The translations under genes were made by a program, and so were the position numbers. From Cytospora piceicola (lineage: Eukaryota; Ascomycota; Sordariomycetes; Diaporthales; Cytosporaceae), in NCBI GenBank assembly GCA_023375675.1, contig JALQBC010000031.1, positions 434,001 through 498,000 of the forward strand: a stretch of 64,000 bases of DNA, given 5' to 3'. This document shows positions 2,705 to 53,836 of this stretch, in pieces; positions within the stretch are counted from its first letter, which is position 1; each line of letters begins with the position of its first letter. The notes under the pieces were generated by a model. It was given only the letters and a program-made list of their open reading frames with translations, was not told the origin of the DNA and did no database searches.

Positions 2705-2709
2705 TAAAC

Positions 2710-2947
2710 TGTTATACACCTACCGGTGGGTTTGTAGCGAACCTACCTGTAAACGCACCTACGAATTTACTATATATTTACCGGTAATTCGGACGGTTAA
2801 ACGTATAGTGATTATATAGTAAACTTAAGGTAAGTTTATAATAGGTTCGTAGGTCTATATATAGTTTATAAGAGTACTCGGTTATATAGAAAGAGAAAGA
2901 GAGAATCTATCTTTATTATATACTACTATACCGTACCGTTACTATTA
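2710..2947 (+). repeat. 5' LTR of Gypsy element
   Basis: The repeat starts TG and ends TTA, the ending being what RIP would make of a CA terminus. Hand alignment with 13072-13309 is gap-free over 238 bp with about 17 differences, all transitions, as expected for RIP acting on two once identical LTRs. Confidence 0.93.
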
Positions 2948-5900
2948 AATAATAGCTATAATTTAAATACGCTCCGTTACGTATCGCCTAGCCTTTTAAC
3001 ACTACGAATTAGGTTTATCGGACTATACTACGATAGTTATCGAGTTATTATTACTATAATAGCTAGTAGGTAATTAGCTTTAATCTCCGGATTTTAAAAG
3101 ATCGAAAAGCGTAAAAGCGTTATTTTATTTATTTAGCTAGTATTATTACCTGTTTATTATAACTTACCGGTTATTTACTATAGAAATTCCGTATTATAGC
3201 TATATCGGGTTTAAACGATATACTCGATATACGCTTTCCGGATATATTCTTAGTAGTATTCCGAAACTATACGGTTATTAAAGATATTTAGCTTTTACGT
3301 TATATTAAAGTAGTTATTACCGAATACCTTACCCGATACTGACTTTACGTTATAAATTATAATCTTACTTTTTTAAAGTACTTAACTAGCTATATTAATT
3401 AGTAATAGCTTTATACCTTTTACTTTAAGTATTACTATAATAATTAAGATAAAAATAACTAACTTCGCTATATTTAAAAACGCCTTATAGAATATATTTA
3501 TAAGGTATACTACTTTAGTTGTTAGCTATAAAAGCCCGATAACGTTTATTTCTTTATCGTTACGTATAACTAGTCCGGTAAGAATATTAAGTTTTATTAT
3601 AAATTCCGGTATTTCTATAACCTATAACGGTTAAGCTATACTTATAATCTTAAAGAACGTAAACCGATTTATTAGTTTTTATGAAAACTTAAGTTTGAAA
3701 GCCTATTTTACGAAAGATAAAGGCTACTTTTTAAGGTAATACTCGGTTTAAGCTAAATAAAATATAAACGAAAAGTAATTATTTATAACGTTTTAAAAAC
3801 TCCGTTCTTGTTAAAATACTAACCTTTTACTTATATTTTAGTTAAACCGGTAGTTTACGTAATAGGAGAACTTAAAGAGTTAAAAAGCTAAAAAATAACG
3901 GTCGAAACGAATAAAAAAAACGAAAGAACTGCTTAAAACCCCGAACAACGATTAAAAACGATAAAGAGTATATAACGTAATAATTTAAAGGTTTTACCTT
4001 TATTTAAATTAATAACCGAAACTATCCGTTTATATATTATATCGTTTTTAATTATTTTTATAATACTACTATAAAAAAGAGATTTAGTTTTATAAGCCGT
4101 TTAGACTAATATATTTAACCGACCGGAAATTACTTTAATATAGGTAAACTTATCGGGTAGTTTTAAAAAGGAACGTTATATTAACGTTATAATTTTTATA
4201 TTAAAAAATATCGAGGTATTCCGATTATACGAGTAAAAGATAAGTTTATAAGTACTATCGTTTTATATACTACTAAGTAATCTTTTTAATTTCTACTATA
4301 CTACTTATAAACCGGCGGCTCGCCTTAAGAATTCTCGTTAATATAGTTATATTGCCCGAGGAAGTAATATATAACCTGCTAAAAACTATATATACTATAT
4401 AGCTAGTAGCGGTAAAAACCTCGGTAACGATTTAAACGACAGTTTAAATAATAATAACTTTATTTATAATTATAATTAAAACGGAAGCTTATTTAGTTAT
4501 TATCTTAACCGAAATAAAGGCTGAGATATATATAACTATAAGTATAAACTATCGATTAGCGTTTTTTAACTACTTATAAACCTATTATTTACCCGAGAGT
4601 TTAAAGAAAATATTTTCGGAAGATTTAAACTATATATTAGCTAAAATAATACCGAAAAGCTTATAAAAGTATCTTATATAGATAATAAAGTAACGGTATA
4701 GAAAAACCTGTTAGCGTTTATTTAGCGTTATTATATATATATCGTTAATATTAAAACTTAACGATAAACCTTATATTAAAATCTCTTTATTTACCTTACC
4801 GGATTTACTTATTTATAGTTTTAAAACATTTTATTAGATAAAGAAAGATTTAACCTAACTATTTACTTTAATATATAAATAAAGTAGAAGAAGTACTTTA
4901 TTACAGACTTTAGTATACCTTATAATATAGCCGACGGAATTTTAAATAGCTTTCGATATATATAACGTAATACTTAAAATAATAAGAATATTTTAGACTT
5001 TACTTAACGTATTTATCGCTTTACCGTTTTAGCTGAATAGTTAAACAGTTTCGTCGTTCGAAATATATAAAACCGAATCGATAAATAAATAATTACCTAT
5101 TACTTTAATCGCTTCGAGTATAGTATTAACTCTTAAGACTTCGAATATAAGCTTAAAGCTAAATAAGAAACTTAGTATATACTCGAAAAAAAGGCTACGT
5201 CTATTTATATAAGGCTATAATAGCCTGTTATAAATAAACGTCGACCTGAGCTATTATAATACTAAGCTTAGCTTATCTGTTTCCGGCTATAAAGGGCCGG
5301 CTTTTAATAACCGGTTTTATTGTTTAACCGTTTTAACTTTTAACGGTTTAAATAAGCTTTACTTTAGGCTTAAGTATTAAAATAGCCTTTATAGCTTAGT
5401 TTAAGCGATTATTAAAAGTTATTACTTAAGTAGTAAAAATAGTTAATCGAAATATAAAAGGCCGTTTAAAACTAATAATAAGTTACTTATAACCTGTTAT
5501 TACTTAAGCTAGCGTTATAGCTATTAACTAATACTATAGACTAAAGTCCTTTTAAATAACGTTACTTATAAAAGCGTTATAATTAGCTTAAAATCTTCCG
5601 ACGTTTCGTTTATTAAGATAGCGAAAGTAACGTAATAATAAAAGACGTTTAACTCTTTAACGTAAATAACGGTACCTTTTAATATAATACTACTTACGAA
5701 AAGGAGCTAATATAAAACGGCTTTTATCCGGTTAATAAAGAAATAACGTTTATTATAACAGACGAACTATTAAACGATATTAGTAAACAGATAAGCTTAA
5801 AAGACGATTAACTTACCGATAAAGAAAGACTTTCGAATAACGAATATATAATAGTTAAAGACGTTAATATATATAACTTTAATATAAAACTATCTGCTTT

Positions 5901-8900
5901 AAAACTATTAGACGACGGTATTTATTACGAAAAATATCCGTTTTATCCGGACGATCTTTATTATATCGATTATAGTTACGTTTCCTTATTTAAACTACGT
6001 TTTTTTAAATACTATCGTTATTATAGTAACGTTAAGACGTATTATAATACGATAAGATAAGAAAGTTTCGTTTTAAACCTTAATATATTACTTTAAGTGT
6101 TACTATATAAAGGTTATAGCTATACGTATACTTATACCGAGGTATACGGTTCTTTAACCGGTTATACTTTTAATATTTATTATAATACTAAGGCTTTTAG
6201 ATATACGATCTTTTAAGCGATATTAAACCTAATACTTAATATTAAGGTAAACTAAAAAGCCCGAGCTAATTTTTAAAGGATAGGTAAAATAAGTACTTTT
6301 AGTTAAGCCGAGTTTAATATCTTTTATTAAGCTATTTTAGACGGTTTACCTATTATTTTATTAGTAAAGATAAAAGCGTAAGTATTTAAACGTTTAAACG
6401 TAAAACTACTAGTAAAATAAGAATTTATAGTATTATATTAGGTAAATATCTTTAACTCGGTAGCTAACGTATCGTTTAATTGCTTTAACGGTATACGAGT
6501 AAAGGTATCGGTTTTTATTAAAACCGCTTTATATACTTATAAAATAAAAGCCGCCTTCGCCGCTGTAATTCTATTACGATTAAGCTGTATTATACCTATT
6601 ATTAAACTACTTATAAGAAAATTAAATCTTTCTTATTTAAGTTAAAGTAAGAAGGTTAGGTAAATACCTTAATTAGTTAAGACTTTTATAACGTAATAGC
6701 TATAAATTAATTATCTTTTCCTTTAAAAATTAGTAAAAACATTTATTTAAATATACTCGAACCTATTTCCGAAAAATATATAAAACGTATAAGATAGAAA
6801 AACACTATTTAAACCTTATTAGATTATAATTAATTACTTTTCTATTATTCCGAGCTATTTATATAAAACGTAATTGTTAACTTATCTTCTAAGTTTAACT
6901 TTACTAATATATTAAACGCTTTAAATAATATCGAATAACCTGTTAGCATTAAAGAATTTATTTTAAATAAGCCGTCTTTAAATAAAACAGACGTAAAGAT
7001 ATATAAATATCTTTATTTAAATAAAAAACTTAGTATTACTTATATTAAGGATTTACCCGAAATAAAGCTATTAAACAATATATATATATACCGGTATTCG
7101 CTTAAGTTTATATTAAAGGTAAACCGTCTTATACGCGAGTTTATATATATATTTAAAAATACTTCGAATATTCGAGTGTTTAAAGGTAAGCAGATACAAG
7201 TTCTTTTAGTCGAAAGCTAGTAAAATTAAAAGATATTATAACAACTATACTACTTTAATAAAAAAGACTAAAAAATTATTAATAATATAATAAACAGTCT
7301 TTATAAATAAGGTTATACCGAGTAGGTTATTTAGTTTACTTTATTCGGCTTACCTGTTTTCGTAGTATAAAAGATAGTAGAAGATAAGCGTAAAGAACGT
7401 ATAGTCGTAAACCTTTATACCTTTAATAAAGTAACTATTCTCGATATGTATTTGCTACTCTTTTAGTTAAACGTTTTTAAAAATATTCGTAGTAAGTCTT
7501 TTTTTACTATTATCGATATAAGCTTATTTTTTTATTAGTTTTAAGTATACCCGCCGTATTATAAACGGTTTACTTTAGTTAATTACTATAGTTAAAAATA
7601 GCTAAAAGTTATATTTATAAATTTCTATAACTTACTAATATATATTTAACGGTATATAAACTATATACTCCGGCCGTTTAAGTATTTTACTACCGCGTTT
7701 ATCGATAATATTATCGTTTTCTTTAATATTGCCGAAGAGTATATAAAGTATTTAAAGCAGCTATTTATACTGTTTATAAAGCGTTATATATCTTTATTAG
7801 CTAAGAAATTCTTTATCGGATATTCTTTAGTAAAATTACTTAGATTTAAAGTTAACAGACTAAGTATATATAATACTTTAAACTAAGTAAAAACTATTAT
7901 TTAGCTATAGTTCTTTACTACGTTATAATAACTTAAAAAGTTTATTAGCTTTATAAGTTATTTTTACTATTTTATACTACGGTATATTAAACGTATCGAT
8001 TTATTATAAAGACAGAAGACTTAAATACTTACTAAAAGATAAGAAGACGGGAAACTTCCGAAAGGTAACGCCTAGAAGAACTATACTTATTAGACCTCCT
8101 TTAAGCCTACCCGAAAAAAGGTATACTCTTTTAACGATTTTAAGTCGGCTTTAATAGGTAAAAACGTCTTATTTTATTAAAACCCGGATAAGCCGTTATT
8201 TATTTAATTAAATACTTTAAAAGAAGTTAAATTTTTAGATATCGTTTTTTAGCTAAACGATAATTTTAAATAAAACCGGAAGTTACCTATACCTCGTACT
8301 TAAATCCGTTTACTATAATATTTAAATAAAACTATTAATATAGCTAAACGTAAATATTAGTTAACTAAACTCGAAGTTACTTATTTAATATAGTTAGTTT
8401 ATAAACTTTATACGGTTATTAGTTTAAACTATAAATAACCTGTATATATCTTTATAAATTACGTTATTACTATCGGTATTATTAAACAGACGTTTTTCGA
8501 TATAGTAAATAAAACTAAAATAAATATAAAGCTTATTTTTATATTAAAGTACTTAAGCTAGTATAGTCTAAATATTTATTATATTCCGGAGGTAATTAAT
8601 ATATTAGTAGATACTATCTTTAAGCTGCCGATAAGTTAATAGCTTATAAAAGATAATAACGTATTCGGTAAATTATAAGAAGATACCGCCTTATATAGTA
8701 TATCTAAGATCTTTATTAACTAAACGTTTAAAAATTATATCGTTATAAGATATTAAGAATATATTAGTTAAACTAATATTATTTAATAATTATAAAGTAA
8801 TTAAATAAAGATAAATATACCGTTTAAGTTAAATACAGATAAACTCTTATATTTTATAAAATTATTAGGTAAATAACGCTTTTATATCCCGGTATAAGTA

Positions 8901-11900
8901 GCTACAGATTTTATCGTTAAAGCTTATAACGTTAAGTACTACTTCGGTAAAAATAAAGTTTAATATAACTTTACTAACCGGTTTATAATTAAGAATTACT
9001 ATCGGAAGGTTTTCGAATATATTAAGAATTATCCGGTTTATATAGTAAATCGTAGTAAAAACTAATAGCTATTAAAGGAGATATAGCTTATTTTCTTACT
9101 ACTAATTTTATTCTATACTATTATTATAGACTTTATAACGGTTTTACTTAACGTTTTAGCTATTAATACTTCGTAGGTAATTTTTAAAATACTTTTTTTC
9201 GATACTTTTCTCTTAATTATAAATAAGTATAATAAGGTAACTATCGTTATTTTTAGTAATACTATATATATAGCTATAGATTAAGTATATATATTATTAC
9301 GTATATTATATCTGTATAACTAAGGTATTTTATAACGTATTATTTCTAATAAAGATTTTAAGTTCTTTTCGGACTTTTAATAAAGTTTATAGTCCGGTTT
9401 AAATATTAAGCTAGTTTATTTAACCGCTTAACACCTATAAACCAACGGCTAATCCGAAGATAAAAATAAGATAATAGAATTAGTAGTCCGGATATTTACT
9501 ATAACGTATCTTAAAGTCGAATAGACCGATATTATTTTAATATTATAGTTTAACTTAAATAACGCCTATAATAAGGCTACGAAATACTCTGTTAATTAAT
9601 TAATATATAGATTTAATCTTACCGGAATAAGCTAGCTAAAAAAAGGTATTCCGGTATTAGCTTAAAATATATTTTAAAAAAAAGCGTAACTTATAATCGC
9701 CGAGGCTTAAATAGCTATAAAACTATAATATAATAAAAAGTATCGTTAGTATAAGTTTACTTTAAGTAACTAAGTTTTTATTAAACTTTACTATAGCTAT
9801 ACGTTATTTAAGAATTTAGCTCGAAAATATTCTTAATAACGTATAAAACCGTTTTAAGTTATATATAAGGTAAGTAAACTAATATATAAGCTTAAGATAG
9901 CTTTATATATAAATATTTATTTAATATTATTTATAATTTATTTATCTTTAAGTAAGCTATTATAGTTTAACCTATATAGATAAGATTTACTAGCTATAAA
10001 GCTTATAAAAGTAAATAATAATAAAACGTAAAAGTATAGTAAAGCCTTTAAATATTATAATTTATAACGTATTATAGCTAAACGTAAACGGAAGTATAAT
10101 TATAAACAGCCGTATATCGAGTATTTTATAAAATAAACCGATTACTTTAGCTATTTTAATATATAAATACCGCGAAATACTTTAAATACCGATAAAATAA
10201 TTTAAGAATTCGAAATAAAATAAGAAAAGATAAAAAAGCTATATATTTAATTAGTAATAAAAAAGGAACTGCCTATAAGGTAATCGGAACCCGGAGAAAT
10301 AGTTATTTAAGTATTATAGCCCCGGCTAAAAAGAAAACTACTTAATAAATAACCGGCAGATCGGCCGGTAACGTCGGCGTTAAAGCCGAAAAGTAATATT
10401 CGACGTTTATAAAAGGTTATTAAATAATAAAGGTTAAATATATTTATATTAATATTAAGTAACGAACGATAATAAAGAAAACCTATTTATTAACCGACTA
10501 TTAACCTAAATTTCTTTTTTTATATTATCTATTACTTTTCTTTATTTCGTTTTTTTCGTTAAAGCTTACTTTTAAAATATTATATCGTTAGTTTAATTAT
10601 TATACGAAGTATTCTACTTAAAAACTTACTTTAAAGTTACTATCTATTCGCTATTTTATATAATTTAAAACTATTATATCGAACTCGCTTTATATTTACC
10701 GTTAAATACGTATACTAAACTAAAAAACCTATATAAAATATTAATAACCGAATATTTTATAAATACCTTAAAATATTAAAGTTTTACTTAGTATTATACC
10801 TTACCTTTTATAACCCCGGTTATTTATATCTATAAAAAAGCTATATAAAAGAATACTCGATAAAGGTTTATAAAGCTTTATATCGGAATATATTAAACCT
10901 TAATAGATATAAATAAAGACTTTACTTATATAAAAGAGAATCGACGGTATCTATTAAAACGTCTACTACTAATACCCGATTTAATATTTACTTATATTAC
11001 CGTACGGCTAAGTAAATACGTTTTCGATAAAAAGTAATCGATAAAAGATATATTAACCTTACCGACCGAAAGGTAAAGTTTAATATATATATACCGCTTT
11101 TAAAGCTTTTAGTATACCCGATTAGCTATAAGGTTACTTATTATAAAGCTTAGTAATATTTTAGTTAATATCTTATTCCTATATAGATTAACTACGATAG
11201 TATATTATACCGTAGATAAAAGCTTTATTTTAATACGTAAAACGGCCGTGTAAGCTAAGCGATAGATTTATTTATAAACAGATATAAGAAAACTAACTTA
11301 GTATATTTATTAAATTCTTTTATAATATTAGCTCGAAAAGGTTTAAACTTATTCGCTTATAGTCTTTTTACGTTTCTATTTACTTTATCTTATAAGCGTA
11401 ATAAATATATCCGTCGTAATAAAAAAGGCTAATTCGCTTAAAATATAAGTAACCTTATTATTAATAAAACAGACTTAATTACGATATAGTATGCTACTAT
11501 AAGCTTATAGTTCTTAAGCATTAAGCTTATAAATACCGGTTACGTTACTATAAAGGAATAATAGAAGATTAAAAAGAAATACTATAGCTTTATATCCGAT
11601 ATTATTACCTACGTCGAGGTTATTATAAACGCTTTTAAAAAACTTAAAATATAGTTAACTCTCGGACGTTTACTATAAAACCTATAATTATTAAGCCGAA
11701 GAAGCTTATCTACCGCTTTTATCCTTATAAAGGACGATATTAAAAAAGAACTAATATATAGCTTTTAATTTAACTTTACTAAAAGCTCTTTTATAAGTAA
11801 AAAACGTTATACTACCGATAATAGTTTACCTATTATAGTTTATAAATCGGATAAGTTTAAAGTAAATTCGCTTTCTATAAAACGTAAACGCTTAATATAC

Positions 11901-13071
11901 CTCGTCGTCGTTATTAACAATATATATAAAAATAATAAGCTTAAAACGTCCGCTTAGTTTAATACTACTACGTTTACTATATATATTATCGAAGCAGGTT
12001 ATAAGCTTAAAACTAACGCTTATATTTAAATAAATAGCTAAAAGCTTTACGTTATTTTACTATTTAACGTAACTAATACTAATATTATAGTATTATATAA
12101 TACCGCTATATAAGTAGTAAACTTTATCTGTTATATTTAAAAACTCGATAAAAAGTCGTATACGTAATACTTTAGCGTTACCTTTATATTTAAGTACTTT
12201 TTCCGCTACCGAATAAACTTCGATCTTATTAAAACTAAGTTTTAAGAAGGCGGCGATATTAATTAAGCAGGTACTCGCTATAAATAAAAACGTTTTTATA
12301 TAAGTAACCTCGGTTATACGTCTACCGAAACGTTTAAACGTCGCTTATACGATATAAATTTATACCTTAAGGCTTATAGTATAATTAAGGCTATAGCTTT
12401 AACGTTTAACGAAGTCGTAATACTAACTAAAAACGTCTTTAATAAAGACGTAAAAACGTTATTCGGTTTACTATCCTTCTTAGCTAAAAAAGAGTTAAAA
12501 CTCTGTTAAATTCTTTAAGAATACGTTTTATTTAATTATCGTTTAGTCGTTATTTTATAGTTATTTTTATATTTATTATTTTACGTTTATAGGTCTATAG
12601 GCTTTTTCGTAGCGTCGACTATATATATAGGTAAACCGACGCCGTATAATAAGTGCTTAAAAATAAAAACAGTCGTTACCTTTCTCTTTTTATTCGTTTA
12701 GCAGTATTAATAGTACGTATAGGTTTACTAATACCGTAAAGCAGGTGCTTAAAAATAAAAACTATTTTCGCCTTCTTTTTTTTATAGTTAACCGTACTCT
12801 TTTCTTAACTATACCTTATATTTTTATAAGCTTTTATTTCTTTTATTATATATACTACTATAGTTTACCTAAGCCTTCGCCGGTCTTTTCGTCGTATTAT
12901 AATTTAAATACCGTCGTTACCTAAATATAATATCTTTTTCGTAAATTAGTAACAGTTCTTTTCCTTATTTTATAAATATAACTACCTTTATATTATAGAC
13001 TTACTATTAATTTAATTACGACTATAATACCTATATCCCTATAAATAAAGATTTTTTCTTCCGGAGGTAAT

Positions 13072-13309
13072 TATTATATATCTACCGGTAGGTTCGTAGC
13101 GAACCTACCTATAAACGTACCTACGAATTTACTATATATTTACCGGTAATTCGGACGGTTAAATATACGGTAATTATATAGTAAACTTAAAGTAAGTTTA
13201 TAATAGGTTCGTAGGTTTATATATAGTTTATAAGAGTACTCGGTTATATAAAGAGAGAAAGAGAGAATCTATCTTTATTATACACTACTATACCGTACCG
13301 TTACTATTA
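13072..13309 (+). repeat. 3' LTR of Gypsy element
   Basis: This is the exact-length partner of 2710-2947, offset 10362 bp. The initial TG has become TA, and the copy is followed immediately by the TAAAC target duplication. Confidence 0.93.
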
Positions 13310-13314
13310 TAAAC

Positions 13315-15050
13315 CGTTAGCTTTTAATATATATTATAAGTAAAATAATATAGGTTTCGACCTAAGCTATATCGCCGTTATCTTATTATAGCTAGTCTAT
13401 AATACTATTATATAAGTTTACTTATAAGTTAGCTTAATAAGTCTTTAACTAAGTAAGCTTTATCTAGTTTATTATAGCTTATAAATCTACTAATAGCTAT
13501 TAAAATAGCCGTCGAAAGGAGAATAATACTTATAGATTCGCTATTCGTAGGTAAAGGATATATCGGCTATACTCTCGTAAGCTTATATAGTCCGATTTAC
13601 AGCTAATATCTTATAGATCCCGGACCTTTATTCTTTAGTATTAGCTATAGTCGCTATATAGTAGTATAAAAAGGTATATAAAAGGAAAATATATAAGATA
13701 AAACGGCTATATATAACGAAAGGCTATAACCTTTATATTATTTATAGTTCGCTTTATAAAAACAAAATCCCGAAAACTAACGTTTATATACTTATATAGA
13801 ATAATAATAATAACCTTATCGGCTATAAAAAGGTTTATACGTTTTTAGTCGGCCTTATCTTTAAGTATTAACCGTATTTATAGGTTTAAAGTTACCTATA
13901 TTAAGCTTATTATTTATTAAAACCGCTTTTATATAATAAAATATATATTAATAAACAGGTTATTTTTATATAGATAATTTATAATATAGTTAAAGATTAC
14001 TATATTTAAGTTATTATTAAATATAAAACGAAATATAAAAACGTAGTTAAAATTATAGAAATATAGCTATATATATTACAGCCTTTAACTTAATACCTTT
14101 TATAACAGGCCGGTTTAATAATATAAAGCCTTATAAATCTAAAAATTTATAAGTCTACTACTTATAATATTATACCTTATCTTTTTATAGTCGATAAAAG
14201 TAAAAGTAAAGATATTATTATACTACTATATATCTTTATAAAAGGCTTTACTATATAATATAATATTATATAATAGGTTATATAAGAAAAATAGTAAAGG
14301 CCGGAAAGCCGGAATATATACGTTACCTTATAGGTAATACTTTTTAAACTTCGGGTTTATAATTATAAATTACTATATAATAAAATTATTAATATTCTAT
14401 TTAACTATAATATAATATCTATACCTATAATATATATAAAAAGTCTTTTATTTATTTAATATATAGTATTATAAAATTTATACTTAACTATTATAAGCTT
14501 TAAATTAAGTATAAAAATATTTTCGATACTATTTATAGGTAGTTAGCTATACGGTTTTTTTAGCTTCGGTATATAAATAAGTATAATAGCCGGTTACTAT
14601 AACCGTATTATATATATATTTCCGGAAATCTTTTTTAAAAGCTACTTACTATAAGTAACGTCGTAAGGTAGATATATAGTATAAAAAGCACTATTATAAC
14701 GTAATCGAAAAGCTATAGTAAAGTAAAAGTTTTTATAACAACTATAAAAGCTAGTTTAAGAAAAGCAGGTAAGACGATTTACTTAAGGCGGTATAGTAAC
14801 AGGGTAATATAGCAGATATATAATATATATATACCGGTATATAAAGTTTTACTTTTTATAACGATAAGTAGTAAAATAAAGGCTTAATAGCTAATATATA
14901 TTATCTGTTAGTATTTAGCCGTTTTATAAGTATAAATCGTTATCGGCTAACAGGCTGTTAGTATATAGACGTTTTACAGGTAAAAAAGACTAACCGTATA
15001 ACCGCTAAATAAGATAGAGCTTACATATATAAAGGAATAATATTGTTGTA
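13315..15050. repeat. RIP-degraded AT-rich repeat, right flank of Gypsy element
   Basis: This has the same RIP composition as the left flank. A plus-strand frame around 13760-14260 stays coherent when TAA/TAG are ignored, suggesting a dead transposon ORF of unknown family. It could be the other half of the repeat into which the Gypsy element inserted. Composition returns to normal near 15045, at the edge of the gene island. Confidence 0.7.
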
Positions 15051-15518
15051 GAAAACCCGGGATTCCCGATACGGCAGGTCAATTGATTAGGACTGCCTCG
15101 GTCCTTTCTTCATGATTTTGAGTATAAGATGGGCATAATAGTAGGCTATAAACTGATGAGTATCATAATCCCTTTTCGAACCGGGCAATCCAGACATCCA
15201 TGTTTCTAGCATTATCCAATCCTCCCTCTAAATTCTCCACGCTGGCTGCAACTGCATCGATCATGCCATGTAACATGATACCAATCTTGCACATGTGGAA
15301 TCCATACGGGCAACAACTTCATCCAGGTCAGCGCGGAACATGCGCGACTTGACCACCATTCGCACCTCCATCTTAGCATCAACCTGTTTGGGCAAAGGCG
15401 TGGCGATCTCCTCCTTCGCCAATGTCCAGCCGACTTCCCCGGCGAGGCCCGTAATCTGACGCGGGCTCAGGGTGCAGCGAATATTTCGTTTCGATTCCTC
15501 GCCGCGGAAGCTCTCTAG

Positions 15519-16310
15519 CGTGTTATCAGCGTGACCCACAATCCAAATTTGGCAATCCAAATCGCCCACTCTGCAGCCACAAACAACTCAAATCTGGCCT
15601 GTAAATAGCTAAATCTAATAGCCTCGAGGTTTACCAGATTATCTAAATATCCCCTTTAGGTTTAGCCCTATATTTCCGTAGTGTTAAGGGTCCTTAGTGC
15701 CTGCTGTTATATGCTGTTATATGCTGTTATATGCTGTTATATGCTGTTATATGCTGTTATATGCTGTTATATGCTGTTATATGCTGTTATATGCTGTTAT
15801 ATGCTGTTATATGCTGTTATATGCTATTATATGCTGTTATATGCTGTTATATGCTGTTATATGCTGTTATATGCTGTTATATGCTGTTATATGCTGTTAT
15901 ATGCTGTTATATGCTGTTATATGCTGTTAAGGACTATAAGAATGCCGGCTAAGGCTTGATTAGTAAGCAGCCTCGAAAATAAAGGCTTCTGATTAGCCCG
16001 TTAGCCCTACTTATACGAGAGGATATTTAGTATAGCTAAACTAATCATTATTAGCTAGAGGCATTAGATAGGGCCGGATATGCTTAATATTCTGCAGTAT
16101 CTTAAGTGTTAGGTGCGAATCGATAGGCTAGTTTGGTGGTAGCCTTATTTTAGTGATAGTCTGGGGGGGGGGGGGGGAAGTGGGTCAAATCTAGCAATCC
16201 AATCTAAATCACAGCCGCCGGAGGCAAATCTATGGCATTACTGAGGCAAACAATCTAATTCTGATGCCGAGATTTGAGTTGTCTGGATTGTGGGTTACGC
16301 TGCGTGTTAT
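15519..16310. mobile_element. hAT-type MITE with 8 bp target duplication
   Basis: The insert 15527-16302 (776 bp) begins CAGCGTGACCCACAATCC and ends with the reverse complement of CAGCGTAACCCACAATCC, an 18 bp terminal inverted repeat with one transition. The 8 bp CGTGTTAT flanks it on both sides (15519-15526 and 16303-16310). CAG-starting termini and an 8 bp duplication are hallmarks of hAT transposons. A further ACAACTCAAATCT block lies inside both ends, offset by about 38 bp at the left end. There is no transposase, so the element is non-autonomous. Removing it restores the methyltransferase frame at the TDNT codons, independent proof of the insertion. Confidence 0.92.
15701..15929 (+). repeat. 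Decamer minisatellite (ATGCTGTTAT)n inside MITE
   Basis: About 23 head-to-tail copies of the 10 bp unit occur, 21 of them complete between 15711 and 15920, with a single variant (ATGCTATTAT at 15821). Because the unit is not a multiple of three, all three forward frames are open with a 10-residue periodic peptide; these are artefacts, not genes. Confidence 0.95.
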
Positions 16311-16596
16311 CTGTGAGGGCGGGCAGAAGGTGAAGTACCTGAGCTGGTAGTGAAACTGAGAGACCATACTCGGCGATAACGACGCTTCGGGCATGTTGAC
16401 GGGCCCTCTTGGAGTATCCTGGTGAGGATGTGCGGGTTGGAGAAATACCAGATTGAGTAGCCGAAGACGATGAAGTCAAACGTTTGGCCTGCAGTGCCTT
16501 CGGAGAGACACGCAATAGGGTCGGCCTGTACGAAGCTGATTAGATGCCCAACAGCCGAAGCAAGAACATGAACCTGAGATGATGCGTAGTCTTGGG

Positions 16597-16782
16597 TACC
16601 TATGTGTCACGATATTAAGGTAGTCGCTATTGCACAGCAATAGCGGTTCCGTTTTTGCGTCACACTATGTGGCGAGTTTGTTTGGTCTTATAACTCTCGT
16701 TATGTGGAGCCGAGAGGGAAGGACAAGAATTGACAGACCCCATTCAAATGGCGCATTACCAATATTAGCGACTACATAGGTA
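16597..16782. repeat. Possible TA-flanked short palindromic insertion
   Basis: The segment 16599-16780 starts CCTATGT and ends ACATAGG, is flanked by TA on each side, and contains GTAGTCGC near both ends and an internal hairpin around TCGCTATTGC. It separates two conserved blocks of the methyltransferase. It may be a tiny Tc1/mariner-like MITE; alternatively part of it is an original intron. The inverted repeat beyond 7 bp is imperfect. Confidence 0.35.
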
Positions 16783-16969
16783 CTCTGCCTCCGCATCCCA
16801 CTGCATCAGCCAGCACGACCGTGAGTTCACCCTGACCAGGTCCAATCTCGAGCACAAATGCTCCCGGCGGGATGCCCCAGGCCCTTGTGAGTTGTTGACG
16901 ATGTTCGACAGAGTAAAGAAGGCACGCTGACAGCTCCTGAAGCGAAAGGTGGTTCATTTCAGTTGTCAC

Positions 16970-18062
16970 CAGGCAAATGGAAGCCGAATGACCACAAGAG
17001 CCAGATTGGAGGAAATATGGGACAATTTCGTTGTGCCTTGATGATAGAACGAATGCAAGTGCTACATACCCCCAACCCTAGCGATTTTATTCGACTATGA
17101 TGTTGTCATAATGTTGAGAAATAAGGAGCAGGAGAAGGGAACCAAGAGAGGGGGGAATCGAGAGTATCCCAAGATTCCTGTGCTAGCCTGGATCAAGTCG
17201 CATTGCAGACGAAGATACCTCTAGATCCAACACCTGTCGTCGCAGTGAGACCTCAAGGCTTTAAGGTTCTATCCAGGGATTTCCGTACTAGTAATTATCT
17301 GTTGCCTCCGCACGGTTATCAGTACACTAGGGATCCTTCACCCGCTTCCGCCTGTTGAACCCATAGGAGGCTGATTACTGATAGGTTAGGTTCTCAGAGC
17401 TACTGTGCGGACCAGCCCGGGGTGGGTTCCCAATACGTGTCAGGTCCGGGGAAGGAAGGTAACCTGCAGGGACCCTTGTATATAGCATCTTTGAGCGGGG
17501 TCATACAAGCTCAGCCAATGCCTATGTAGGTACAGAAACTGGAACACAGTTAGCTATTACTTTAGAACAAAATGATGTCAGATTAACTTCCCAAGGGTTA
17601 TAACCCAAGCCTACCTTGCTTGCCGGACCGATCATAATCCTGCCGTTTGGTATCTCCAGCGCTAACTTATGCAGCGCTAGAACCTTTCTGAGGAGAGAGC
17701 CGGCCTCGTTAAAGAGGCCGAGAGGGTGTCACAAGGTTTCCCGACATATTGGGCGCCAGATCCAGCCCCTACCATCGGTCTGAATGCTTACATGATCAGA
17801 CGGAACTTCGGAGCGGGCGGTATTTGATACGTTATCTCATATTGTATGTAAGATGTTGGTGCTTTGAGATGGTGTGATTTGTTGATTGTAACATGCATTC
17901 AGCCACTCCGGAAAATCTAGGCAGGCTATATGCATTGATCTGGCAGCTAACAATATGGCCGGCTAAAGACCAATCGATCCAACAATACTTGACAAAATGG
18001 TGAAACACTTCGGTGCGATGAACGTCCTCTCAGTCCCAATAGAAACGCAAGGCATGTGGGTT
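16970..18062. other. Intergenic, no gene seen
   Basis: Composition is normal. I see no coding frame with recognisable content on either strand. It separates the methyltransferase pseudogene start from the 3' end of the UstYa-like gene, both on the minus strand. Confidence 0.6.
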
Positions 18063-19157
18063 TCACTCGAAATGCTCGCTGTGATCCTTCTCGCTGTGAT
18101 CCATCTCACTGTGATCGTGCTCGTTGTGGCTATTCCTGCTGTCTCCTTCTGGCCACACCGGAGCCAAATCGTGCGTATGGTCATCCTTATGGTCATGGTT
18201 ATGCCCGCCTTGAATCTGAATTTCGCCGTCGACCATGGGGAATGAGAGACCTAAGGAACATCATACCAGTCAGCAACCATTCAAATGAGCAGGTAAAAGC
18301 ACAGTCATTATGCGGCTTACCGAGTTGCGGATGCACCAGTGTCTTTTGGTCAAATATGGAGAACGACCGCTTCGATGCCCATTCGTCAAGTGCATCCCAG
18401 TTCACGCACGTCTGGTCAGTATGGAAATTTGGCATTGGTGCGCGCATTTCCGGATGCCAATAGAACGTCACAACCGACAGGTCTGCGTGGCACATGAGAG
18501 ATTCTCGGATATCGTTTATGCAGTGGTCTGCGTGGCCGCGAAGGTCGGGGATGCTGACATTGTACTTGTCATGCCACAGGACCTGTCTCAGCATACTTAG
18601 GCAATGAAGATGGTGGTATGCGCTGATCTGGCCGAAAAACCCGCCCCCGTTTCTCAGCTCGATGGGTTCGGGATCTTGAGTTCGGTTTAACTTCCGCAAC
18701 TCCTCTGCGGTGAAGCGAAGGTTGTAGTGTTTGAAGAGATGGGTCCATGCCTCTTCTACCTCGGGGCGCGGCTCGCCAGTATATTTGGTGCTCAGGCCGA
18801 GACTCCCATCGAACGAGTGTCTGTGGTACTCTTTGATGGCTTCCTTTGCCGGTGCTGTGATAGACAGGCATTAGTTACACGGCCAATGGATCACATGTGT
18901 CTGAGACATTGCAACATACTGTACGTGAGAAATGGATCGAGACTCGAAGAGCTCCAGGAGCGAGGCACCGTGAGTAGAACCAGGCTGTAGACGACGAGGA
19001 GGAAGACAGAGAAACCCCGGTGCTGCCACCACCGATAACGCTGCTTCTTGCCGTATGAGGGCGTATGAAACATTGTTGGCAATCCGTCCATCGAGTCTTT
19101 CTCACACTCATCAAGGAGCGGTGCCGCAGAGGTGCTGGACCTATCTGGCGACTCCAT
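18063..19157 (-). CDS. UstYa-like (DUF3328) oxidase with His-rich tail
   Basis: Three exons: 19157-18920, 18854-18321 and 18250-18063, with introns of 65 and 70 bp starting GTATGT and GTAAGC. The model closes in frame at 319 aa. A single membrane segment lies at about residues 49-65 (GFSVFLLVVYSLVLLTV), followed by the DUF3328 core with two HXXHC motifs, HHLHC (about 160-164) and HADHC (about 187-191), the family's metal-binding signature. In ustiloxin and phomopsin-type pathways UstYa proteins form oxidative crosslinks in the core peptide. The third exon adds about 60 residues with 11 histidines, including a DHSE repeat, which I do not know as a normal part of the family. It is divergent from the repeat precursor at 20303. 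The start is the only ATG consistent with the frame; codons upstream are non-ATG. Confidence 0.88.
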
Positions 19158-20302
19158 AATGAACAATAATGATTCGAGTGAAAGACCTTCCTAACGAAAG
19201 GGAATGAATAGAGGTTTTGATGAGAAAGAAGGAGGTGGGAAACCCATGAGACAAGCAAAGAGAAACACAGAAGCATTGTCACTTTCTCAGATATACTTTC
19301 ACTGCCCCCCCTTGAGCCGACTTGTCTCTACCCTCTATCGCCCATTGATTTATGCAGGACCTGACGTGATTCTCTGGAGTGCGGGGTGATACGGATGTCG
19401 ACATGATCAATTCCTTGGAAATTGCCAACATTGCCACACCGCTATGCACAAACAATGCGACAGTAACCCTTGCGTTCAGCTGAAGTGAGCAATACCCCGG
19501 GGCTTCGGAGATCCTTAGATCAAGTTCCTATGATAGGGCTTGCATCTAACGTGGGACATCCTTTCCATGATCCGATATTGTTCTACTTCGATATCGAAGA
19601 TGAATGTCTTCCAATTTGAGTTGCATTAGGAAGTACAATCGCTTGGCCATTCACATGAAATCTGATATCTAATTTGGGAAAATTATTTGATGCTGAAGTC
19701 TAGAACTATCGATGTCCTTCCTTCCGCTCAGTGATGCATTTCGATACCTCGTTGCGAGTACATATAGCCCCAGTACCATTTGGGAGTAGTAGTCTCACCG
19801 GCTTATCGGTTGCCCAGGATCCATGCATGAAGACACCGCTCTGCACTGCAACCTAGTGTATGGTTATCAACTGACACCATCGCGCACTTACTCTCTCGGA
19901 GGCATCGCCAGTGCAGATCCATCAGCATCTTGAGGAATCGTTGGACTACAGCCTATAAGTGGTTAGAGATAAGCTGCAAGGGAGTAACAATAGTCCAGGG
20001 AAAGAACTATACGTTACCTGCATACTTGGTGTCGTTTGGTTGGCGGCAGGTTGCTGTCCGAGAATGGATGTGAAGATCAATGTGCAATTTGCAAAGACGA
20101 ATCAGGCGTGGGGCAAACTGGATATCTTGTTGCTCCAACAGCGGTGTCTTGTAAATCGGCCAAATATAAGATGGGAGACAATTCCCGTCTAAAGAAGCAG
20201 AGTATGAATCAACCCATTCTCGACATCACTTCTTCATCAGCCGGCGTCTAGCAAATAGTCCGTCTCCAAAATCATCGATATTTCTTGCCCCCATTCTCCA
20301 CC
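19158..20302. promoter_or_regulatory. Shared divergent promoter region, UstYa-like / precursor
   Basis: This 1.1 kb spacer lies between the start codons of the minus-strand UstYa-like gene and the plus-strand precursor. No coding frame is recognisable. Both 5' ends face it, so co-regulation from this interval is likely. I could not identify a specific operator. Confidence 0.45.
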
Positions 20303-20726
20303 ATGAAGCTCACCCCCCTTATCATTGCTCTTTTGCCGTTCCTGGCTGCGGCGATCGCGGCGCCCACAGGCGGTAAGTCTGATCTACTCGCCACCGCTAC
20401 CAATCCATCAAGGTTACTAATAACTGCCTACAGCCAGAGAGGGTGCTACTCAGCTCTACGACAAGCGTGCCGACTCTGAGGATGCTGTCCAGAAGGGCTA
20501 CAAGCGTGCCGACTCTGAGGATGCTGTCCAGAAGGGCTACAAGCGTTTCGACTCTGAGGATGCTGTCCAGAAGGGCTACAAGCGTTCCGACTCTGAGGAT
20601 GCTGTCCAGAAGGGCTACAAGCGTTCCGACTCTGAGGATGCTGTCCAGAAGGGCTACAAGCGTTCCGACTCTGAGGATGCTGTCCAGAAGGGCTACAAGC
20701 GTGCCGACTCTGAGGATGCTACTTAG
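20303..20726 (+). CDS. Secreted Kex2-repeat RiPP precursor (dikaritin-like)
   Basis: Two exons: 20303-20372 and 20434-20726. The 61 bp intron runs GTAAGT..TACAG with a TTACTAATA branch site. The 120 aa product starts with a signal peptide (MKLTPLIIALLPFLAAAIAA), a short pro-region ending LYDKR, then six 13-residue repeats of the form XDSEDAVQKGYKR at residues 36-113 with X = A, A, F, S, S, S, then ADSEDAT and TAG. Each repeat ends in KR, the Kex2 site, with a Tyr just before it. This architecture (signal peptide plus near-identical repeats split by KR) is that of UstA-type precursors and of other Kex2-processed repeat proteins. The neighbouring UstYa-like oxidase argues for a dikaritin cyclic peptide whose core includes the Tyr; the exact core is inferred. 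There are no Cys or pheromone-like motifs. In-frame repeat-like coding continues after the TAG to 20786. Confidence 0.87.
20469..20702 (+). repeat. 39 bp tandem repeat encoding precursor units
   Basis: Six exact-length 39 bp units differ almost only in the first codon (GCC, GCC, TTC, TCC, TCC, TCC). Near identity at synonymous sites points to recent unit duplication or gene conversion. Confidence 0.95.
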
Positions 20727-20786
20727 AACTACAAGAGTCACAACTCTGAGGATTTGAGTCAGGACTACAGTCAGAAATACGACTAA
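20727..20786 (+). other. In-frame coding-like extension after precursor TAG
   Basis: The same frame runs 19 more codons to TAA at 20784-20786 and still contains degenerate repeat residues (NSED, SQDY, SQKY). This suggests the TAG at 20724-20726 replaced a CAG and truncated an originally longer precursor. Confidence 0.5.
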
Positions 20787-21887
20787 GTGTCAAGCGTGGG
20801 GTCTGTTTCAGGGGGAGCTGTGGTGTTGGACTGTGGTGTGGGAACTATGTTCAGCACGAGCAAAGACGGACTGTAGACAGTGGGCAGTGAGCAGTTGGCA
20901 GGTCATCAAATAGACATAATTCAGAGGGTTCTGGGCTTTGTCTCTCAGTTGAATACTCTTTTGTTGGTTTCCTGGACGTAGTGTTTCCCTGCGAAAAGCA
21001 CACAAATAACGTCCCTCAAGCAGTCAACCCTCAAGCAGTCAACTCTCAAGCTGACAGCCCGAGGTGTAATCTGGTAGCCCCTCAAGGATGACTGTTCAAG
21101 TGGTAATAGTAGATTCAAAATTAGATTGCCCATACGAGCGCCGGATCAACTGCTGCAACCACTCTTCGAAGTGGAGGACGTTTTGGGTAGTGGGACTCGG
21201 TAACCAACAAAACTGATTGGAACATGCCGTCGTGGCCCTCAGACCCACTGAGGGCCCACTTACATGTGCATAAGCTTACATGTACCTAAGCGACATGCCA
21301 GCCAGCCAGCCAGCCAGCCTTGAAGTCGATAAGAGATAGAGGATCCAGTTTTGTGTGAATTCTGTATCCACTCTAGCTGCTTGTACCTTTTCACCTGAAG
21401 GATACCTAGCTAGGTACGTAACTCCTGGTTGGCATAACAGGGACGGGCTGTGTTACACGGAGTAGGACCTGATTATATCTACTGTTTCGTATCTGAAGGT
21501 ATTAGTAGAGAAAAACTCCTGCTACTACAAATCGGTCTAATCAGATGATACGGAATAACTACTATTCGATATACCGACTAATTTATGGGATTTAACAATA
21601 TATTAGTTATCTACCTAACCACGTAGGATTAGTACTTTTCGAGTTAATCCATGGCACGTTTCCTAGCCCCTTGTCACCCCGCGGCACACAGCGGCCGGTT
21701 TTCTTTCCCGCCCCCAAGGTCATGTCTTCTCAACTCACCTCACCACACCAGCCCCGGGAATGAACCCGACTCTCTCTTCTTTCTCTATCTCTCTTCAAAA
21801 GATACGCCCCTGACTACCACCCAAATCAAAACAGGCGCCACAGTCGATTCTGGTCTACTGTTTGATAAGCGTCTTAGATGCATTACA
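20787..21887. other. Intergenic with short tandem repeats, promoter of MFS gene
   Basis: It contains an imperfect 15 bp tandem repeat of CCCTCAAGCAGTCAA at about 21011-21055, and a (CCAG)n microsatellite at 21297-21318. An AT-richer patch lies around 21470-21640. No gene is recognised. The start-proximal part is the likely promoter and leader of the transporter. Confidence 0.5.
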
Positions 21888-23405
21888 ATGTCGACTGCGA
21901 GACACGAAGAGAGGCCTCTGCTGGGCCCCAAGGGCGATAGCCATGAGCAGAAGCTCCGCCGGCGTGTTGTTGTTGTGAGCTTCACCCTGGTCCTGCTCAA
22001 CGACTTCGCTGGATTCTTTTTGGACGCTCCCCAGACGAGCATCCTTGAAGGAAACATTTGCAGCCGTTATTACCAATCCACGCCCAGCCCGGCCGGCAGA
22101 GACTGTACAGCTGGCCCAGTCCAGGCTGAGCTTGCGATCGTCAACCAGATGCTCAACACTTTCAACCGTCTGCCAGGCCTCTTCGCAGCCATACCCTTCG
22201 GCATCATAGCCGACCGCTACGGCCGTCGCCCCGTGTTCGTCTTGACTATCCTCGGTGCACTCCTGCAGGATGTCATTTCCAAGATCATTCTCTGGCGACC
22301 TGACGTCTTCGCACCGCGTCTTATCTGGTTATCGTCTCTTGCCACCTTTGTGGGCGGCGGGGATGCCGTCGCCACTTCCATGGTCTTCCTGGTCGTCGCT
22401 GACGTCGCCCAGCCACACCAGCGAGCAGAGCTGTTCTTCCTCCTGACCGCCTGCGAACGCGTCGGTGAGATCGTGGGTACACCATTGAGTGCCCTGCTTA
22501 TGTCTATCTGGAACCCCTGGATACCGTACCTCATGTACAGCATTTTGACCCTGCTCGCTGGTATGGTCCCGGTGCTCTTTCTGCCAGAGACTTTGCGGAG
22601 GTCCAGACCGCCGCCTGATACGGGAATAGAACCAGACACCCCTTTGTGCGAGTCCAACTCAAGGGCTGACGAAGGGTTGCCAGCCTCAGCGAACGGGACG
22701 CCGTCCACACCTACACACTCCACCATCATATCAAAGTTCCGACCTCTTATCAAGCACAACGTTGTTGCTGTTCTGTTGGCCTTTTTCGTCTCAGCATTGG
22801 GTCGTCAGTCAACGGGTTTTCTGTTACAGTACACCCGACAACGATTCAATTGGACTTACGAAAAGGTACTTACTGACATTGGCCATCCTTACCCGCTGAA
22901 CACGGGCCAGATTTACTAACCACCGCGTCGACTCCAGGCTAGTGTGTTACTCACAATTCGGGCTGCTGTAGACCTTGTTCTGCTACTGGTTGTGCTCCCA
23001 GCCCTGCACAAAGTTCTCGTCAAACGCGATTCAGGTTCCCAGGGCAAGGATCTCCTGATCAGTCGTCTTTCTGTCGCATTATTCGGCATTGGCTCACTAG
23101 TTATCTCGTTGGCTCCGGTTGTGCCTGTACTCGCTCTAGGCATCGTCGTCTTCGCATTTGGCTCTGGCTTTTCGCCTGCCGCCCGCAGTCTGGCGACCAC
23201 CTTCGTCCACCAAGATGAAGCAGGGCTGCTCTATACTGCCCTTTCCATAACGCAAACGGTTGGGGGGCTCATAGCAGGCCCTTTGCTAGCTTTGTCCTTC
23301 CGTTGGGGACTCAGCCTTGGGCCTCAGTGGACTGGCATTCCATTCACTCTGGTGGCTGGCTTGTTTGCCTGTGGATTCATTGCAATCTGTTGTATACGGC
23401 TGTAG
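21888..23405 (+). CDS. MFS transporter
   Basis: Two exons: 21888-22865 and 22938-23405, with the intron GTACTT..CCAG in phase 0. The product is 481 aa. It has multiple hydrophobic segments typical of a 12-TM major facilitator, with the motif A-like loop PFGIIADRYGRRPVFVL at residues 103-119 and a hydrophilic central loop before the second half. An upstream in-frame ATG at 21651 would add 79 residues of low-complexity Pro/Ser sequence, so I prefer MSTARHEE at 21888. It lies just downstream of the RiPP precursor on the same strand, consistent with export of the peptide, but substrate specificity cannot be read from sequence. Confidence 0.85.
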
Positions 23406-23835: not shown

Positions 23836-25902
23836 TCATGCCGGAATGTAGGCTCCCAACTCAGCCCAGAGATCACACCTCGCCCCCCTACCTCCCTCCC
23901 AGAGCATCCCATCCGCAACCCTGAAGCTGGCCGCATTAGCTGCAGTCACATTCAGGTCCAGCAACGCATACTTCCCATCGCCCGCGCCGTCAACGGGCCC
24001 GGTACCCTGGCCCCAAGGCTGCCAGTACTCGCTCTGCGCAGCCGTGATATTGTCCGCGGTAATATACGAGACCTTGACCTTGTCCAGATACCCCGAGGCG
24101 AGCGTGGGGTCGCCCCTGACGATCATGGACCCCCATATCCCCTGGAACGCCGCCCGGAAGGCGGCGTCCTCGCTCGAGCCCACCACGTACACCGGCGGCT
24201 TCTGCAGGGGCCCGAGGTCCACCGCGTGGAACGCGTTGGGCGGGGAGAACTGGTACCGCCAGGCCTTCTTGCCCTCTGCGTTGGGGTTGATGGCGGGCGA
24301 GTAGGCCGCGGCGAGCCAGTACGCTGGGCAGACCATGGTGACTTCCGCGTAGAGGTTGTCGGTTGCTTGTTGCCAGCCGCCGGCGGCCTTGCTCATATTC
24401 GTTGCGTATGGCGGGCTTAGGCCGTTGCTGTCGAACATGCCCGAAAATGGTCCAGATAGCCCCAGTGGGTATGTGACTGACCAGTTGGAGTCGAGACTAT
24501 AGACATCCATGATTGCTGCCAAGTTTGATTCCGAAAGTAGAGGATAATTGTAGCTGAGGTAGTTGGTGAGGTTCGCCTTACTAGAGATGTTCTGGTGAAC
24601 GAACTCGTAGCCTTCATTCGCGTTTTGCCCAATGACTAAAGACTGTCCGTTTACTTTCCCGCTCAGCAGCTGGACAGTCGGACGCTCCTGGACGAAGGTG
24701 CCGTCGGTGACGGGGACGAATGCCCATTGTCCAAATAACGCCCGCGCGCTGACCTGGGCACTTGCATTCTGTAGTGTGTCTGAGTCCACGGTCGAGAGAC
24801 ATTGGAAGGTTTCTTCAGAGCTTGAGACGTCTTCACCATCGGCGCAGCCTGCAAAGTCCGCAAGCAAGTTGTAATACTTTGTTGGCCATGCACCGTCATA
24901 GTCCCTAGCCAGGGGGTAGTGTTAGTGATCTAATTGTCCATAAGTGCACATAATCCAGTCCGACTCACCATTGTTGCGGGATATAAGGACTACTGACAAC
25001 ACCATTCTGCCATAGTCTTGTCCCGTCGGTGCCACCGTAGGCCATAGCTTGCAGTGCTACCGAGCCGCCTCCTGCTGACTCCCCAGCAATTGTTACATTG
25101 TTAGGGTCGCCACCAAAGGACGAGATGTATTTCTGGACCCATTCCAAGGCATGATACTGGTCATATAATCCAGCGTTCGCGATGCCATGTTGCGATATAG
25201 ATGTCGAAGAGGCGAATCCAAAGGCGCCTAGGCGATACTGAAGAACCACGAACATGAATCCATCGTCCATGAGCTCTGACATGAATGTGAAGTCGTAGGA
25301 AGAAGCTGAGCCTGTCCCGTAGCCGCCACCATCTAGAGTGCTCCAGTTAGTGATTGTCCCCCTTGAGCAAGGCCGAATAACCTACGGATGTAAAACATGA
25401 CAGGTAGCAAGTCATCGGCGCTGGACGGGGTGTATATGTTGAGAAAAAGGCAGTCTTCGTCCCCTGAATATCGAGCGCTGGTGATCGTCGGGACACTGAT
25501 CCCATGTAAGTGCCATGTTTAGAATAACGTACAAGGCTTCTTCAAGCATACTAAGGGCCAATAGACAGCATAGATTGTGGACACTGGGGAGGGTCCGTGG
25601 TAGCTGTGAAGATGTCCGTGGAATTACCAGAGGGCCACTTTGGAGCTTGCCATCTCGTCGGAGGGGCGGCGTAGCGAACGCTGGAAATTTGATTAGTTAT
25701 CTACAGTATTGTGTTTTATAGAACGAGAAGCCCCTCGTTCAATAGTAGGAAGATTGACCGACCTCTTCCAGACATTGAATCCAGATGTATTGTTCGTATA
25801 GCCTACATAAGTACCGTAGTCAAGTGTGACTTTGAGATTGTTTCCTAGACAGGCAGCCCCTGAGGCGGATAAGAGTAGACTCCAGAGAAATTTTGGTGAC
25901 AT
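23836..25902 (-). CDS. Secreted type-B carboxylesterase/lipase
   Basis: Five exons: 25902-25763, 25680-25552, 25495-25386, 25332-24969 and 24904-23836; all joins keep frame, giving 603 aa. A signal peptide is present (MSPKFLWSLLLSASGAACLG). The alpha/beta-hydrolase features of the type-B family are in order: VRYAAPP near the N-terminus, EDCLFLNIY, the oxyanion loop HGGGYG (about 127), the nucleophile elbow GESAGGGS (Ser about 212), the acid in NANEG (Glu about 345) and the His in NAFHAVDL (about 474). It therefore has a complete Ser-Glu-His triad and usual family length. It likely hydrolyses ester or lipid substrates outside the cell. It lies convergent to the MFS gene; a role in the RiPP locus is possible but not shown. 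Confidence 0.9.
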
Positions 25903-46945: not shown

Positions 46946-47598
46946 GTAGAATCAGTCGATGTAGGTAGAAATAATAAGGAAGAGTGGTGAGAGAACAGCT
47001 CGGTGTTACGGACAGATATAAAGGACGAGCATTGCATTTATGAGTCGCTGCACATGTGGTGGAGAATTCTGAATTTGGAATATCAATTACAGCGCCTTTC
47101 GTAACCCCTGTGGTTACAAGGTTTTGATAAGGCATGGCGACAAATGGTTGGACGAAATCAGTAGATTTATGCGCCCGTTGGTTGCTTTAAAGCCAACATG
47201 AAAGCAACATGTGAGTTTGATCCCTGGATTCTCGCTTGCGTTGGCTTTGACGCAAGGTCGGCCGATAAGAAGCCGGCTTTAAAAGAGGATTCCCAACACA
47301 TCTTCATTGAGAATAGGGTACCTACTAAGTAAGTACGCTGCCTTCGAAGTCTTTCCTTGCAACATCGCAGTATGTTGTCGTCGGAAAAGAAAACTGGTCG
47401 GAGCGAGGGGGTCTTATAACCGGAAGAGATACCAGTTGACTATACATTTGAAGATTTAAGATTGATCCGATATGCAGCCAGTTTACCACATTGTCCCTTT
47501 GATTGACCCGCTGTCGCCGGCTAGTAAGGATTTGGAAACCCGAGTGGGTATGGTGCGTAGTACTTCTCGAAATCTCTACTAACACCTTTCTACGTAAT
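46946..47598. promoter_or_regulatory. Monooxygenase promoter region with duplicated block
   Basis: Non-coding. Positions 47190-47291 resemble 54948-55073 on the far side of the Copia element, in the same orientation and at a similar distance upstream of a minus-strand start codon. A shared core reads CTGGATTCTCGC then TGCG, followed by ACGCAAGGT and GGCCGA. Confidence 0.5.
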
Positions 47599-47603
47599 CT
47601 ATA

Positions 47604-47753
47604 TGTCACGTATCTAGGCATATCTAAGCCTACTCTATTATAGAGCTCGCTACTAATATAGTCTATATAAAAGAGCTTTTTACGCCTATTATAAATAGTA
47701 TATAATAGCAGTTAAGTTACTTTATTCGATATACCTTACTTTAAATCGTTTTA
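47604..47753 (+). repeat. 5' LTR of Copia element
   Basis: It begins TGTCACGTAT and ends TTTTA. It aligns gap-free with 54091-54240, with differences that are all transitions by hand alignment. Confidence 0.93.
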
Positions 47754-53700: not shown

Positions 53701-53720
53701 AGCAGAAGGCGGTATTTTAT

Positions 53721-53835: not shown

Positions 53836-53836
<1 letters not shown>

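Follow-up and report, generated by a model that had tools for sequence, protein, structure and literature searches.

A likely dikaritin-type peptide cluster with one UstYa oxidase and a broken methyltransferase gene in Cytospora piceicola

A 64,000-nucleotide stretch of the Cytospora piceicola genome (hereafter the window; the genome that holds it comprises 43.6 Mb in 99 contigs) carries a compact gene cluster consisting of one Kex2-processed repeat precursor, one UstYa (DUF3328) oxidase, and one major facilitator superfamily (MFS) transporter, plus a lost tailoring gene, an S-adenosylmethionine (SAM) methyltransferase. We consider it likely that this is a dikaritin-type cluster for a ribosomally synthesized and posttranslationally modified peptide (RiPP), with the UstYa protein oxidizing a peptide derived from the precursor. 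The core sequence of that peptide is new within the protein and paper collections that we searched. Judged from their sequences, the genes fit a dikaritin cluster, which PMC10512285 defines by a Kex2-processed repeat protein (KEP) precursor cyclized by UstYa homologues, and a KEP gene and a UstYa homologue do lie here in one cluster. Such pairs are common, with a DUF3328 gene no more than 15 genes away for 1758 (22%) of 7878 KEP genes and a count that peaks at the next gene position (PMC7329392), so the cluster is of an already known kind. A 2022 review nevertheless gives five reported dikaritins, though UstYa genes are found close to 22% of KEP genes (PMC10512285).

Repeat precursor and UstYa oxidase

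An earlier note on this DNA had proposed a secreted Kex2-repeat precursor at 20303-20726, and the gene reads as claimed. It opens at the ATG at 20303, closes at a TAG at 20724-20726, and contains one intron with canonical borders (GTAAGT..CTACAG). The predicted protein begins with a segment, MKLTPLIIALLPFLAAAIAAPTG, that looks signal-like by eye, passes through a short leader with KR at its end, and then continues as six full units of the form xDSEDAVQKGY-KR and a partial seventh, where x in units 1 to 6 is A, A, F, S, S, and S. For a KEP, three or more near-identical units with KR between them are expected; there are six full ones here. At the DNA level, the six 39-bp units differ in their first codon only (GCC, GCC, TTC, TCC, TCC, and TCC), and Tandem Repeats Finder described the array as 6.7 copies with 98% match and a score of 492. 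Because these units are identical at synonymous sites, we read the array as having turned over recently. The seventh unit stops at the TAG, and a degenerate eighth comes after it. When we scanned for KR-separated units, a 33-kb stretch gave no match in any of 20 mononucleotide-shuffled versions, and the real window gave three: the precursor frame, another plus-strand frame running through this array, and a lysine/glutamate-rich part of an open reading frame (ORF) near 37 kb. The unit xDSEDAVQKGY, which the earlier note had not recognized from any described product, was likewise absent from the literature searched, where text matches concerned unrelated proteins. A search of solved structures gave no match at an E value of ≤1.

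The UstYa gene is transcribed divergently from the precursor gene; in the gene models, the two start codons are 1.1 kb apart and share an intergenic region. Its identification as a UstYa-like oxidase with two HXXHC motifs stands on a PF11807 profile match with an E value of 7.7e-53 (180 bits, against a curated cutoff of 25), and the main piece of the gene has the best score among the 36 PF11807 matches in the genome. The protein has one N-terminal hydrophobic stretch and carries the motifs HHLHC and HADHC. In all 21 aligned proteins (the window UstYa and 20 of its 23 relatives, with P0004, P0005, and P0018 left out), H160, H163, C164, H187, H190, and C191 are invariant, giving the arrangement HxxHC(x)nHxxHC. 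Most of the named relatives belong to the Sordariomycetes, among them Lasiosphaeris, Nemania, Cytospora, Canariomyces, Neopestalotiopsis, Ophiocordyceps, and Diaporthe, with Polychaeton and Aspergillus more distant. The best relative is 80% identical over 97% of the length, and one fragment is 82% identical over half of it. With 19 of 23 relatives at least 50% identical and spread over many fungi, the enzyme is not divergent in the sense of unusual, as the earlier note had called it.

Table 1. Coordinates of the cluster genes and associated features in the window
Feature	Position	Strand	Details
Broken class I SAM methyltransferase	15166-16969	-	tblastn with P0005 residues 227-443
776-bp insertion in methyltransferase	15527-16302	.	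18-base inverted ends CAGCGTRACCCACAATCC, one difference
UstYa/DUF3328 oxidase, 319 aa	18063-19157	-	exons 19157-18920, 18854-18321, 18250-18063; PF11807
UstYa exon 3	18063-18250	-	encodes almost the entire His-rich C-terminal tail
Kex2-processed repeat precursor, 120 aa	20303-20726	+	exon 1 20303-20372, intron 20373-20433, exon 2 20434-20726
Degenerate repeat tail	20727-20785	+	after the TAG stop, runs to TAA; unit-like (SED, Q, Y)
MFS transporter, 481 aa	21888-23405	+	exons 21888-22865, 22938-23405

Transporter, methyltransferase, and neighborhoods in other fungi

The remaining two genes flank this pair (Table 1), with the MFS transporter adjoining the precursor on the side opposite UstYa and the broken methyltransferase downstream of UstYa. 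Both had been named in the earlier note, and both were borne out. Exon 1 of the transporter matches MFS_1 at an E value of 4.1e-19, and exon 2 alone has no Pfam match. Its relatives reach 85% identity over the full length; the search listed 110 matches, the transporter's own ORF (P0027) included, and the named rows at 44% identity or above are all fungal. Protein relatives of the cluster come mostly from Sordariomycetes.

The methyltransferase has a counterpart in P0005, a Cytospora chrysosperma protein in which a UstYa continues into a methyltransferase within one gene model. Its UstYa part is 90% identical to the window UstYa over 178 residues by tblastn, and we read the fusion as a merged gene model, one that nevertheless shows UstYa and the methyltransferase to be same-strand neighbors in C. 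chrysosperma as well. The remainder of P0005 (residues 227 to 443) aligns to the window in four pieces at 56 to 90% identity (85.5% over 76 residues, 90% over 41, 61% over 96, and 56% over 52), the best with an E value of 1.7e-54. Pfam gave sub-threshold matches alone for these pieces, to a SAM fold for the piece at 16772-16969. The frame is broken twice, at about 16.40-16.45 kb and about 15.29-15.30 kb, and given these breaks and the insertion the gene is a pseudogene here. Between two of the pieces, the segment at 16606-16770 has ends that look inverted by eye (ACCTATGT..ACATAGGT) and may be an intron or a second small insertion.

A search for the same neighborhood in other fungi, which the earlier note had suggested, recovered one part of it. 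Taking co-location from species and equal contig sizes, and with the UstYa and MFS match lists both limited by word sharing, we found a UstYa and an MFS match on same-sized contigs for 3 of the 23 UstYa matches, in Diaporthe helianthi (24,097 bases), Nemania sp. FL0916 (338,453 bases), and Lasiosphaeris hirsuta (6,674,962 bases). The D. helianthi tags DHEL01_v207457 (UstYa) and DHEL01_v207459 (MFS) leave one number between them, matching the one gene between the two here. The UstYa-MFS frame thus appears to recur in some relatives. Together with a Kex2-repeat precursor beside UstYa and an MFS gene, the UstYa-MFS and UstYa-methyltransferase neighborhoods in some other Sordariomycetes support the dikaritin-type assignment that the note had made.

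Several observations weigh against that assignment. The other part of the neighborhood search came back empty: from a collection of 5.8 billion proteins, 8000 candidates were scored, and none was related to the precursor at an E value of ≤1. In a scoring control of 30 altered copies, those with up to 5 of 10 unit residues changed still had E values below 1e-30 once scored, but candidates were picked by shared five-residue words that had to match exactly, and a unit that had diverged far would escape. Conservation of the precursor-UstYa pair in related species would count as support for a dikaritin cluster rather than define one. Both Ophiocordyceps australis genomes have their UstYa and MFS matches on contigs of differing length. 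No named row of the MFS list belongs to any of the remaining named UstYa species, including Cytospora, and some genera in that list (Sporothrix, Seiridium, and Ilyonectria) are missing among the UstYa matches. With Val as the one exception, the unit has none of the branched residues found in the ustiloxin and phomopsin cores. Finally, the methyltransferase is lost and one unit of the array contains a stop, so that decay of the locus is conceivable.

Proposed pathway and competing explanations

If the cluster is of the dikaritin type, Kex2 would cut the precursor after KR in the endoplasmic reticulum or Golgi, and trimming would leave xDSEDAVQKGY. The acidic xDSED part may act as a recognition spacer, with UstYa, as a binuclear-copper oxidase, acting on the C-terminal AVQKGY part, where Tyr, the sole conserved aromatic residue, would probably be linked to a neighboring side chain with the loss of 2 H. 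Judging by its title, a 2025 paper by Chiang, Ohashi, and Tang reportedly describes a copper-dependent DUF3328 enzyme in fungal RiPP macrocyclization. The MFS protein would transport the product or an intermediate. We infer these steps, from release by Kex2 through trimming to oxidation of the part with the C-terminal Tyr, by analogy with characterized clusters. One UstYa and one Tyr per unit suggest a single oxidation (-2 H). Other mass shifts are possible, since hydroxylation, chlorination, and desaturation have likewise been reported for DUF3328 proteins (PMC12048977, PMC10512285, PMC12435403). The computed [M+H]+ values of the linear form and the form with 2 H less are 1198.522 and 1196.507 for SDSEDAVQKGY, 1182.527 and 1180.512 for ADSEDAVQKGY, 1258.559 and 1256.543 for FDSEDAVQKGY, and 665.362 and 663.346 for AVQKGY. 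In relatives, the methyltransferase may act in the same pathway; since it is broken here, the product should lack that methyl group, and this fungus would be expected to differ naturally in this respect from relatives such as those in Cytospora. The cluster also offers a clean test of one UstYa acting on a single-Tyr unit.

Like this cluster, those of the dikaritins ustiloxin, phomopsin, asperipin-2a, and victorin combine a Kex2-repeat precursor with one or more UstYa homologues, the precursor being secreted there and signal-like at its start here. What sets it apart is the unit xDSEDAVQKGY and the single UstYa; the gene models made in the 8 kb include no tyrosinase, with no profile search aimed at one. 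The asperipin-2a core ends in Gly-Tyr, as does the unit here, but with one Tyr per unit the peptide here could form at most one Tyr-based link. The asperipin-2a cluster likewise has one UstYa (PMC7329392), and in ustiloxin- and phomopsin-type pathways a methyltransferase acts (PMC12048977), whereas the one here is broken. The epichloecyclin (gigA) cluster of Epichloe is also small and holds a repeat precursor and a DUF3328 gene, but its repeats are imperfect and 27 residues long and it includes a kexin gene, compared to near-identical 13-residue repeats here (PMC7317419). CctR, the cyclochlorotine hydroxylase, shares with our UstYa the DUF3328 family, the HxxHC(x)nHxxHC motif, and one membrane helix; it is a binuclear copper enzyme whose motif holds two copper ions per monomer, and it requires oxygen and electron input (PMC12435403). 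It hydroxylates a nonribosomal peptide, however, whereas the UstYa here adjoins a ribosomal precursor. A His-rich tail is a further feature of the enzyme here.

Three other explanations deserve weighing. The precursor could be an ordinary linear KEP, a secreted signal or matrix peptide, and the UstYa could serve another substrate or act weakly. That 78% of KEP genes have no nearby DUF3328 gene and some KEPs are linear (PMC7329392) is in keeping with this, as is a precursor with no detected relative beside a UstYa with many. We nonetheless think it unlikely, given the divergent adjacency to UstYa, the MFS gene placed opposite as in D. helianthi, and the Tyr in each full unit, a residue found in 65.6% of repeats of DUF3328-near KEPs and 38.2% otherwise (PMC7329392). 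A mating pheromone, for its part, can be set aside, for the unit has neither the Ste13-type XA/XP start nor the two-Cys or PYGxPxG signatures described in PMC6339444.

We also judge it improbable that the repeat gene here is a newcomer and that a single conserved substrate of the UstYa subfamily, ancestral to it, lies elsewhere in the genome. UstYa relatives span several genera, and the precursor was not found outside this locus. A protein search of its own genome returned the precursor itself alone at an E value of ≤10. A separate scan of 45 loci, on how often repeat precursors lie beside other UstYa genes, matched two alone (L001 and L040), both of them the window's precursor. Of the loci scanned, L041 to L048 were negative; L002 to L031, which are 30 of the 36 PF11807 matches with 1.5-kb flanks, several overlapping, were negative as well but uninformative, as L002, the window's own UstYa locus, has a flank that ends before the repeats and was negative too. 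Small repeat genes, however, often go unannotated. RiPP precursors are, moreover, described as highly variable (PMC12048977).

Finally, the cluster may be a relic without a product, its methyltransferase hit by an insertion and broken twice in frame, its array ended early by the TAG within unit 7 and followed by decayed units, and its edge adjoining an AT-rich block that reaches about 15.2 kb and has a strong dinucleotide bias of the repeat-induced point mutation (RIP) type. Yet the reading frames of the first six units and of the UstYa and MFS models remain open, all UstYa motif residues are kept, and the identity of the six units at synonymous sites points to recent turnover of the array; we hold this explanation, too, to be doubtful.

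Histidine-rich tail of UstYa and surroundings of the cluster

After its DQKTLVHP motif, the window UstYa has 11 His in 64 residues, encoded in part by a 15-bp tandem repeat (18075-18128). Counted after the same marker, orthologues have 16 (P0001), 10 (P0002), 9 (P0003), 7 (P0006), 5 (P0008), and 4 (P0015) His; others are His-poor, with 3 (P0009 and P0020), 2 (P0017 and P0021), or 1 (P0019 and P0022). The tail is not universal, there being no His in three Ophiocordyceps sequences (P0010, P0012, and P0013). The count leaves out P0018 and P0023, which lack the marker, and P0004, P0005, P0007, P0011, P0014, and P0016, whose model ends seem cut or merged. Among 30 UstYa loci of the genome, the window UstYa ranks first by His density, with 9 His in 40 residues, followed by 7 in 40 at each of L003, L008, and L021. 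The stricter pattern HxHxHxH occurs at L008 alone among the 30, the window tail having no match, and in control stretches three times in 146,984 translated residues. L003 (on contig C1) and L008 (on C79) end in, or then run into, His-rich stretches (GGHAHDH; HEHEHGHEHEHQH); the tail of L003 is in frame, and that of L008 is probably a separate exon.

The tail may, as we infer, aid copper loading. The authors of the CctR work hypothesize that an accessory protein supplies Cu(I) or passes on electrons (PMC12435403), and a tail that loads copper would be relevant to this donor, which they postulate for the family. Literature linking DUF3328 with the term "histidine-rich" came to the CctR paper alone, where the passage concerned is on histidine-rich glycoproteins (PMC12435403). 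A broader proposal, that a conserved Sordariomycetes UstYa subfamily combines its own luminal, in-cis His tail for copper loading with precursor cores scarcely recognizable from species to species and a stable UstYa-precursor-MFS frame, strikes us as a long shot; if it were true, such a tail would answer how DUF3328 enzymes obtain copper in an oxidizing compartment.

The insertion in the methyltransferase is flanked by an 8-bp target duplication, CGTGTTAT, at 15519-15526 and 16303-16310 and carries a (TGCTGTTATA)n array at 15702-15929 with 22.8 copies of a 10-bp unit. It has eight matches in the genome, one of them itself. Two match pairs place its ends about 3.04 kb apart (C2:1098437-1101480 and C66:22465-25506 of G000), and C28 and C23 hold single ends, so it resembles a repeat-family member that has undergone internal deletion. 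Inverted ends with an 8-bp target duplication are of the hAT type. No ORF of at least 100 aa that could encode a hAT transposase was present inside the C2 relative (L033 and L036), the one copy examined; the assignment therefore rests on end sequence and duplication length, and we call the element hAT-like only.

The cluster lies at one edge of an island of balanced GC content (about 15.2-47.3 kb), which is bordered by AT-rich blocks at 1-15250 and 47251-54250. These blocks have a GC content of about 22 to 27% and a pronounced dinucleotide bias of the RIP type, with a TpA/ApT ratio of 1.57 to 1.67, versus 0.61 to 0.96 in the measured island blocks. The same RIP index is satisfied by eight further short stretches. 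Directly after the MFS gene is a carboxylesterase-type ORF (23836-24867, minus strand; COesterase E value, 1e-10). Farther along, a Thr/Ser-rich ORF without a Pfam match (43730-44452) lies beside a GLEYA-domain ORF (44506-45174; E value, 4.2e-27), and a 1049-aa ORF at 37037-40186 has a heterokaryon incompatibility (HET) domain (E value, 1.1e-30) with a short lysine/glutamate-rich tandem repeat inside.

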